Origin: Papiliotrema nemorosa
Lineage: Eukaryota; Basidiomycota; Tremellomycetes; Tremellales; Rhynchogastremaceae
Assembly (NCBI GenBank): GCA_032158125.1
Contig: JASKOT010000014.1
Span: 186,001-250,000 of the forward strand
Length of the DNA: 64,000 bases
Direction of reading: 5' to 3'
The notes beneath the pieces are model-generated. The model saw nothing but the letters and a program-made list of their open reading frames with translations, made no database searches and was not told the DNA's origin. Below, piece by piece: positions 38,294 to 43,061 of this stretch. Within the stretch, counting starts at the first letter, position 1; each line of letters begins with the position of its first letter. The position numbers were made by a program, and so were the translations under genes.

Positions 38294-38747
38294 ATGTCCA
38301 GTCAAGCCCAACTACCTCAGCTCGATGCTGCTTCGAGGGTGAGTACGACTTGCAAGAACATGAGCTGACGAGCAGAAAGAGATGGAGGAGTTTTTGGAAC
38401 AAGAGTAGGCTTTTGATCCCGATCATGGCTGATCTTGTTAGACAAGCAAAGGCAAAGATGCAAGCTACGGTCCACGAGCTCACTGATACTTGTGAGTGTG
38501 TTTGACGAATATTATCGCTGATATCAGGTTGGAAAAAGTGAGTCGGTGGCACCGTTGTTATCTGACTATAGGTGCATAACGGGTGGCATTTCTACCAAAT
38601 TCTCCAGGTGGGTCACCGAGATCAACGCCTCGTCACTGACGATTCAGAGGAGAGGCTAGCTGTCTCGAGAACTGCGTAGACAGGTTTTTGGATTCCAGCT
38701 TGTATATCGTAAAGCAAATCGAGGCCCAGAGGAACCAACTGCACTAA
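38294..38747 (+). CDS. TIM8: Mitochondrial small TIM chaperone Tim8
   Basis: Six exons (38294-38338, 38376-38404, 38442-38491, 38528-38537, 38572-38607, 38648-38747) encode 89 aa, close to yeast Tim8 (87). The twin CX3C signature is complete: Cys42-WKK-Cys46 and Cys62-LEN-Cys66, followed by VDRFLDSS. Tim8-Tim13 hexamers escort inner-membrane precursors (for example Tim23) across the intermembrane space. The exon 38528-38537 is only 10 nt and carries most of the first CX3C motif; the codon for Cys42 is split by the intron before it and a Lys codon by the intron after it. Coding sequence is 270 nt across a 454-bp locus. Confidence 0.93.
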
Positions 38748-41326: not shown

Positions 41327-43061
41327 CTAGGCCTGATTGCTGCTCTGCCATTCTCTGATAGCTTCCGCCAGCCTCTTCATACCCTCCTCTGCATCCGACT
41401 TGAGGTCGACCAGAGAGAAACTCAATCTCATTTGACTGCTCACTCGACCATTTGGGAAGAACCTGCTGGTAAGCGCCGTCTGCGACAGTCCAAGGTGGAC
41501 TCACGAGAATCCCGGAACGGCCAAAACCCCCTTTGCCAGTGCCACTTTTTTGATCAAATCTGCGCTATCCTTGACTCCGGCGGGAGAAAGGTCCATCCAC
41601 AGGAACATACCCGCTGAAGGGCTCACCCATTTCGCCATACCGTCCAAGTGCTTATGTGCCAGAGCCTCAAACTTCTCTCTCCTACCTGCGTAAAAGTCGG
41701 CAACGTGTTGACCGTGGTTTAAGAAACCCTCTATTCCCCCTACCCGTCAACCCGACTCAGACTCGTCTGGGCGAGTACTCACAGTGCTTGCAGAGCCTGA
41801 ACGCAACAGCTTGAGATACTGCACTGCTGTGCAAGCATGCACCGGCCGTCAAAACGTCGATAGCGTGGATAATCTCCTTTGGCCCAGTTGCGAATCCCAT
41901 TCTCATCCCCGCCGCGAGCAATTTGGAAAACGAATCGAATCTGACCACGTGTCCTCCTTCGGGGAATACTTCAGTCTCAAGCTCAAAGTAGGACGGGATG
42001 AGCGTTTGTGCGAGGAAGTCTAGTATTAGCTATGCGGTGGGTAGCAGACGCACAGTATGGGTCATCTGTCGTCAGCCAAGCTCAACAGTCCATGTGCTCA
42101 CCTTCCATGATGAGGAGATTGTACTTTCTGCACACCTCCAAGACGGCCAGTTTCCTCTCTCTGGAGTGAGAACATCCAGACGGGTTGCATCCGGTTGGAT
42201 TGACACTATGGTCAGGTCAGTCCGGGATGTTCACCTACTATACGACTTTTGGCTTCTTTTCTCCTTCTGGCCAGTTTGCCATGGTCTGTTCGAGGTTCTC
42301 CGCTGAGATGCCTTGATCATCTACCTCCACCTCTATCATCAGTCATATCTCTGCAGCGCGACTCACCGATGGTCCTAGCCTGCAGAGCCTTGAGCGGAGG
42401 GAGGATACCAGCATAGACTGGTGTTTCGATCAATACTGGATCTCCGGGATTCAACAGCACCCCGAATGACTATCTCGTCAGCCATTGGACACCTGCTTCA
42501 TAGCTCGGAGGGTCACCTTTGCCATGAGATCTTGACTGCCCGTGCCGACATTGACGCTCCAGCCTCCTGCTTTTCGCTTATGCACCGATGACTGAAAGTC
42601 TTGTAACCAATTGACGAAACCCGTTAGACCGGGTGTAGGGCCATACTGCAACGCGGAATCCAAATCGGGTCCTTCGATAGTCAAGCTTGTGGTTTCGGTG
42701 CTGGAAGACCCGAGAGGGGGTTTGACCTTGAGCGTGATAGATTCAAAGGGGAATGTTTTCGGGTTAGGCTTGCCCGCCCTGACGTGAGCTGCTATGATGG
42801 ACGACGGGCGGTAGACTCACAACTGTCGTCAGTCATGTAGCGACGAGTACTTACAAAAGACACAACGCCTGGTTTCTCATGGACCAACAAACCACGGACT
42901 CTCGTCAGCCACGTTCAAGCTCAGTACTCACTCCCGTCAATCTCGCTCACTCGAGCCTTATCGTTGAGAAAGTACCCCTTGTGGTAGGTATCAGCATGTT
43001 GAGGCGTGTTTGTACCGTTGGTAGGTCGAGTGATATCGATTCCAGTGGTATCTTGGATCAT
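41327..43061 (-). CDS. Aro8/kynurenine-aminoadipate type PLP aminotransferase with 2-nt exon
   Basis: Eleven exons (42932-43061, 42855-42898, 42821-42822, 42517-42778, 42367-42469, 42239-42332, 42102-42205, 42054-42065, 41783-42019, 41505-41739, 41327-41465) encode 453 aa. Fold-type I class I/II signatures: VVSFLAGKPNPKTFPF, YGPTPGL, VNVGTGSQDLMAK, VVYVNPTGCNPSG, the PLP lysine Lys283 in DSFSKLLAAGMRMGF, and an Arg near RLSFSLV. Relatives transaminate aromatic amino acids, kynurenine or 2-aminoadipate. Joining VVSF to AGKPNP in frame requires a two-base exon (42821-42822, TT) flanked by consensus GTAAGT and GTGAGT donors; skipping it gives an early stop. A second tiny exon (42054-42065, 12 nt) encodes DDPY. 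Confidence 0.9.
42821..42822 (-). other. Candidate 2-nucleotide exon
   Basis: Two bases (TT in sense) sit between an intron ending gacgacag (42823-42854, 32 nt, donor gtaagt, branch-like ctgac) and an intron starting gtgagt (42779-42820, 42 nt, ending gtcag). With the next G they form the Leu codon of SFLAGKPNP. This is a model inferred from frame and family; no transcript was available. Confidence 0.7.

Follow-up and report, generated by a model that had tools for sequence, protein, structure and literature searches.

The gene and its model

The window, i.e. the whole stretch of 64,000 nt analysed here (positions 186001 to 250000 of contig C14, in a genome of 19.19 Mb and 68 contigs), carries on its minus strand an aminotransferase gene which we modelled by hand. 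The start ATG lies at 43061 and the stop ends at 41327, a genomic span of 1735 nt. When the coding sequence is reassembled from the coordinates alone, it has 1359 nt and 452 aa, and its sole stop is the terminal one. The ten introns are all GT-AG and measure 33, 32, 42, 47, 34, 33, 36, 34, 43 and 42 nt. The features used below are the following:

41327..43061, minus strand: aminotransferase gene, ATG to stop (hand model, 11 coding exons, 452 aa)
42899..42931, minus strand: intron 1, 33 nt (hand gene model)
42855..42898, minus strand: exon 2, 44 nt, ending with VVSF (sequence and rebuilt model)
42823..42854, minus strand: intron A (second intron), 32 nt, gtaagt...ctgac-gacag, phase 0, summed score 25.5
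42821..42822, minus strand: exon TT, 2 nt, bases 1-2 of the Leu59 codon TTG (frame and paralogue)
42779..42820, minus strand: intron B (third intron), 42 nt, gtgagt...ctcac-gtcag, phase 2, summed score 19.1
42517..42778, minus strand: exon 4, 262 nt, starting with G-GCG-GGC (AGKPNP) (sequence and rebuilt model)
42470..42516, minus strand: intron 4, 47 nt, gtgacc...atag
42054..42065, minus strand: second micro-exon of the gene, 12 nt, inside the conserved EDDPYY (hand model)

The protein matches the Pfam model PF00155 (Aminotran_1_2) above its cut-off (E=9.8e-27), while none of the best 25 of 57 NCBIfam models reached its own cut-off. Its best solved relatives are chains of the human kynurenine/alpha-aminoadipate aminotransferase (KAT II), with an E-value of 9.2e-71. 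By its full-length similarity to solved members, the product is a putative class I/II (kynurenine/aromatic type) PLP aminotransferase.

A 23-nt intron considered in this gene was rejected: it is the 3' part of the 47-nt intron 4, whose removal restores GSQDLMAKSFGVLLNPGD. The donor of intron 4, gtgacc, is poor by the genome's own matrix (-2.7 bits). By eye, one can notice that this intron holds an in-frame gtgtcc, from which a 23-nt intron would result as a possible alternative splice.

An exon of two nucleotides

On the minus strand the DNA reads GTT GTG TCT TTT, gtaagt...ctgacgacag, TT, gtgagt...ctcacgtcag, G GCG GGC AAG, and the coordinates and letters that the original prediction had given for TT and for both introns are exact. 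With TT included the translation is VVSFLAGKPNPKTFPF, in which TT and the next G make up Leu59 of VVSF-L-AGKPNP; the predicted spliced junction with the exon kept is GTGTCTTTT-TT-GGCGGGC. The codon TTG had been said to give the form expected of the family, and it does so: in an alignment of the best 120 of the 2111 homologues found at E<=1e-20 (7998 candidates scored), the Leu59 column holds L in 97 rows and a gap in 9, and the alignment with human KAT II, which runs from query residue 46/47 to 428, is ungapped over the TT junction.

When TT is skipped, the reading becomes VVSFGGQA followed by a premature stop, i.e. the frameshift and the stop within a few codons that had been announced. Retention of either intron had been claimed to fail as well. 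Indeed, retaining intron B gives VVSFL and a premature stop, and retaining intron A shifts the frame and leads to a stop inside exon 4; if both are retained, a stop follows 20 further codons on. The TT exon is needed both for the reading frame and for the conserved residue.

Splice sites were scored with weight matrices built from 175 motif introns of a sample of 264 kb (the window and positions 1-200000 of contig C1, both strands), the query gene being left out. Donor B belongs to the top 0.9% and donor A to the top 1.9% of the GT sites on the minus strand of the window, acceptor A to the top 1.7% and acceptor B to the top 8.1% of its AG sites; the branch-point match of intron B is weak (CTCAC). 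Both introns are complete: each has a donor, a branch-site match and an acceptor to itself, and none of these signals is interrupted. We also enumerated all the single introns which would lead in frame from exon 2 to exon 4 (GT or GC donor, AG acceptor, at least 25 nt). There are 27 such readings, none of which restores SFLAGKPNP, and the TT exon is supported: of the readings found, it alone recovers the conserved motif.

A census of the same 264 kb gave 242 well-scoring motif introns, versus 41 in the reversed sequence, with thresholds that miss weaker introns (the 12-nt exon of the aminotransferase gene escaped). The sole well-scoring pair of introns 1 to 5 nt apart, on both strands, is the pair A/B. 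Pairs 0 to 30 nt apart occur at spacings of 2 (A/B), 6, 10 and 22 nt, the 10-nt spacing being two overlapping calls of one site; the reversed-sequence control holds no pair in this range.

Other small exons

Tiny exons of 6, 10, 12 and 22 nt also exist in the genome, as judged from the frame. In a Tim8-like gene (window positions 38294-38747, plus strand; PF02953, E 4.9e-23; five introns of 34-40 nt), a 10-nt exon at 38528-38537 (plus strand) encodes part of the CWKKC motif. On contig C1, minus strand, two successive in-frame exons of 6 and 22 nt lie at 82546-82541 and 82490-82469, in a gene which by eye resembles a heat-shock-factor DNA-binding domain. As to the 12-nt exon of the aminotransferase gene, two records of Cutaneotrichosporon oleaginosum (P0019 and P0026) show a four-residue deletion in its region, as if the exon had been missed.

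A paralogue with the same layout

Searching the genome with the aminotransferase protein yielded a second gene, in pieces at C41:79259-80059 (53%) and 80394-80663 (44%). Its full model has 436 aa and eight introns of 40-54 nt. It is identical to the query at 210 of 436 residues (48%), in an alignment from which P0011 (781 aa) and P0038 (a fragment) were omitted, leaving 36. Mapped by way of the protein alignment, its eight introns all coincide with introns of the query (positions 1-7 and 10), and the phases are identical. The DNA reads GTGTCTTTC, gtgagt...gctaatatttcag (42 nt), CT, gtcggt...cctgacaatgcag (44 nt), A ACT GGT CGA CCC AAT, so that a 2-nt exon CT gives SF-L-TGRPN and occupies the same codon as TT in the query: the leucine comes from CT+A in the one and from TT+G in the other. 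The introns around CT are unrelated in sequence to introns A and B of the query. By the DNA of this paralogue, the ultra-short exon is conserved in a related gene.

The consequences of mis-splicing were read off here too. Skipping CT gives SFNWSTQSSYFSH and a stop, and retaining the intron before it gives SFVS and a stop; with the intron after it retained, the frame stays open for about 50 codons before a stop. Only 5 single-intron readings keep the frame, and SFLTG appears in none of them. Here too both introns are complete, each having a donor, a branch site and an acceptor; their sums are 23.3 for A versus 12.1 for B, whose donor GTCGGT is weak (0.8 bits).

Annotation indels in related proteins

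We counted the indels at each junction in three groups of the 120 aligned homologues, omitting P0011 and P0038. The first one, P0001-P0030 minus P0011 (n=29), stands for the Tremellales/Trichosporonales and was delimited by names, match rank and a fork of 22 rows with support 100/98 in a tree of 35 chosen rows (33 of the 120 homologues, the query and the paralogue). The second is P0031-P0037 (n=7, including Naganishia, Filobasidium and Mrakia). The third, P0039-P0120 (n=82), is the more distant set by match rank and yet contains a few Tremellomycete fragments.

At the TT junction, 20 of the 29 Tremellales/Trichosporonales rows have an indel at most four residues away, 7 are clean and 2 start past the junction; it should be kept in mind that these rows are protein records, that the Kwoniella rows and close species are not independent of each other and that an indel may also arise in some other way. 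At the remaining eight junctions, the rows with an indel number 2, 0, 0, 0, 4, 4, 1 and 0 of the same 29 (the first junction is not covered by two of them). The TT junction carries an indel in 1 row of 7 in the second group and in 0 of 82 in the third, where two rows do not reach it; P0041 (Cutaneotrichosporon cavernicola), a member of the third group, starts past it. An indel close to a junction need not be an annotation error: 76 of these 82 rows differ in length at intron 8, which we take for a natural change of length.

In the faulty rows, introns seem to have been read through. Three Kwoniella rows go on as F-LYV, which is what reading through TT and then GTAYGT would give, and six Tremellales/Trichosporonales rows go on as F-V (GTN). 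FL is lost in four faulty rows, and seven more are of other kinds. Such a pile-up of indels at a single junction is as expected if annotators failed on one exon.

The clean rows are P0001, P0004, P0009, P0016, P0019, P0020 and P0026; Cryptococcus gattii (P0009) and Cryptococcus sp. DSM 104549 (P0004) are among them. P0016, counted as clean, reads ISFRGGLPNP. By eye, P0019 of Cutaneotrichosporon oleaginosum has the expected motif, while P0026 of the same species has a different stretch there and was scored clean by its alignment despite letters unlike those of P0019. P0001 (476 aa on a contig of 1672 nt) and P0020 (457 aa on a contig of 1664 nt) both read SFLAGKPNP; they are probably transcripts, because the gene of the query, at 1735 nt, is longer than either contig. 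A search of viral contigs for relatives gave no match.

Age of the arrangement

In the tree of 35 rows, the nearest relative of the query is P0001 (support 95/98). The paralogue branches within the Tremellales/Trichosporonales clade, outside the query and P0001, on a long branch (1.58) between weak forks (87/64 and 84/81), which makes its placement unsure. Used as a search query, it finds the same orthologues as its closest matches, at most 54% identical (best 120 of 278). Most simply, the 2-nt exon would be older than the duplication that gave rise to both genes, and the annotation indels suggest that the Tremellales/Trichosporonales ancestor may already have had it. P0035, from outside this clade, reads like one phase-0 intron left in. 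At a guess, this would fit an intron A that is older and an intron B gained later, two bases further on.

Alternative explanations

If there were one ordinary intron, plus an assembly or sequencing indel which shifted the frame, the TT between AG and GT would be a coincidence. A single small indel is indeed enough for a one-intron model to fit, and a genomic sequencing indel had been named beforehand as a way in which the exon could be spurious. Such an error would leave unexplained why a strong acceptor stands 2 nt from a strong donor, and the paralogue answers the objection: as the 2-nt exon recurs there in the same two-intron layout with unrelated introns, an indel or chance is very unlikely. 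Equally improbable, in our opinion, is the splicing of a single intron to some other in-frame site. Two variants of it, of 86 and 110 nt, are open and in frame. In one, GTAAGT is joined to an AAG located 10 nt into exon 4, which gives VVSF-PNPKTFPF; this acceptor scores -5.8, and its use loses LAGK and with it the conserved A (111 of 120 rows) and G (113 of 120 rows). In the other, the donor is a GTTGGT within exon 2, weak with its score of 1.8; this gives IRG-LAGKPNP at the cost of GLLVHEKPGVVSF, most of exon 2. The best of the 27 single-intron readings sums to 10.7, versus 25.5 for intron A and 19.1 for intron B, and the five readings of the paralogue fare no better in restoring its motif.

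One could also think of a stwintron (spliceosomal twin intron), where one intron interrupts a splice signal of another and the two must be removed in a fixed order. The fungal host, the two adjacent short introns, their sequential removal and the frame shift caused by using the distal sites, as described for [D1,2] stwintrons (PMC9024468), all recall this arrangement. Here, on the contrary, both introns are whole and two coding nucleotides lie between them, and we give this explanation next to no credit. Finally, partial inclusion might serve regulation, skipping or retention lowering expression through decay of the frameshifted RNA, which would add to the main reading instead of replacing it. 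The products of skipping and retention end early in the query, as do those of skipping and of retention of A in the paralogue, and alternative splicing has been described as regulating expression in Cryptococcus (PMC5851062). Skipping, however, requires introns of 76 or 88 nt, lengths without excess in our sample, and we regard such regulation as unlikely.

The main reading: intron lengths and probable mode of splicing

From the frame and the paralogue we infer that TT is included in the mRNA, and we are highly confident that it represents a real coding exon, probably a constitutive one, flanked by two very short GT-AG introns of an ordinary kind. The lengths of the motif introns in the 264 kb sample (GTRNGT/CTRAY introns only) have their peak at 33-35 nt and a shoulder at 42-47 nt, and above about 60 nt they show no excess over the control. 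The distance from branch point to AG peaks at 6-8. Joining the distal sites takes an intron of 76 nt in the query or of 88 nt in the paralogue, and at neither of these lengths do motif introns of the sample exceed the control. Because introns A and B are normal for this genome while composites of 76 and 88 nt are not, they would be spliced by intron definition, one at a time, each being recognised across itself; the size of the exon would then be irrelevant to recognition. Intron definition with stepwise removal is what had been predicted, and it fits the very short introns of this genome.

Only 2 nt separate the acceptor of A from the donor of B, so that their simultaneous use seems hardly possible and sequential removal is to be presumed. 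Intron A probably goes first, which is the better guess because it outscores B in both copies. A limit on intron length may be what prevents the skipping of the exon, which would shift the frame. We infer this order and this limit, like the age discussed above, from DNA and protein records. The limit cannot be the same throughout the clade: the introns of C. neoformans average 65 nt (PMC5851062), and those of bglA in Sirobasidium magnum have 57-139 bp (PMC9142197).

Comparison with known ultra-short exons

The original prediction spoke of exons of 1-2 nt as known from plants, where conserved and misannotated 1-nt exons of APC11 and VPS55 have been described (PMC4674806, PMC8831610); ultra-short exons are, however, found in fungi as well (PMC12940212, PMC9142197). 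The aminotransferase exon, like those of APC11 and VPS55, appears to be old, conserved and widely misannotated, but the latter are plant exons of 1 nt and ours is fungal, with flanking introns of 32-44 nt. CYP621A of Fusarium has a 1-nt exon whose inclusion was confirmed by RNA reads (PMC12940212, which also cites earlier finds of 2-5 bp exons in Arabidopsis, Drosophila and humans). In both cases an ultra-short fungal coding exon lies within a conserved motif and is required for the frame; the one has 1 nt, in an ascomycete P450 gene, and the other 2 nt, in a basidiomycete aminotransferase gene, in two paralogues and known from DNA. Exons down to 6 bp are reported for P450 genes of Phanerochaete (PMC1184071).

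Closer to our organism, the bglA micro-exons of Sirobasidium magnum (5 bp) and Rhodotorula minuta (6 bp) were determined against cDNA, and their authors suggest that micro-exons are common in basidiomycetous yeasts (PMC9142197). Ours too is a micro-exon of a basidiomycetous yeast and, as in the Sirobasidium case, of the Tremellales, the order to which the family Sirobasidiaceae belongs. The bglA exons have 5-6 bp and introns of 55-139 bp, whereas we have 2 nt and introns of 32-44 nt. MPC1 has a constitutive micro-exon of 4 bp, its length, like that of TT, being no multiple of three (PMC9929638); it is non-fungal and the title of that paper refers to exon-definition regions, whereas we presume intron definition for ours. 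In the Hypoxylaceae [D1,2] stwintrons (PMC9024468), adjacent fungal introns leave in succession, as we presume for A and B, and distal sites likewise shift the frame, but there the internal intron interrupts a donor, whereas here both introns are whole and 2 coding nt lie between them.

Among the open-licence PubMed Central matches listed, no title or abstract mentions the aminotransferase exon or any 2-nt exon in Basidiomycota, and the smallest Basidiomycota exons in the cited parts of those papers have 5 bp (PMC9142197) and 6 bp (PMC1184071). Ultra-short exons are already in print (1 nt in plants and Fusarium, 5 bp in a Tremellales yeast) and the aminotransferase exon joins them; its case gains strength from the paralogue and from how widespread the annotation indels are.

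Significance

Two paralogues with different introns and one and the same 2-nt exon offer a natural experiment on the role, if any, of exon length under intron definition. The case also points to a repeated failure of annotation: of the 29 Tremellales/Trichosporonales proteins listed, 22, including those of Kwoniella and of some Cryptococcus species, have an indel at the conserved-motif junction or start past it. It is conceivable, although we would sooner bet against it, that one 2-nt exon has persisted as a constitutive exon while the Tremellales/Trichosporonales, Cryptococcus and Kwoniella included, diversified, owing to a spliceosome which pairs sites over short introns only, and that many exons of 1-5 nt are hidden behind frameshifted models in this class. 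We lower the odds of this reading because the Sirobasidium introns reach from 57 to 139 bp. If it is true, the size of an exon would have no lower bound as long as intron length is limited.
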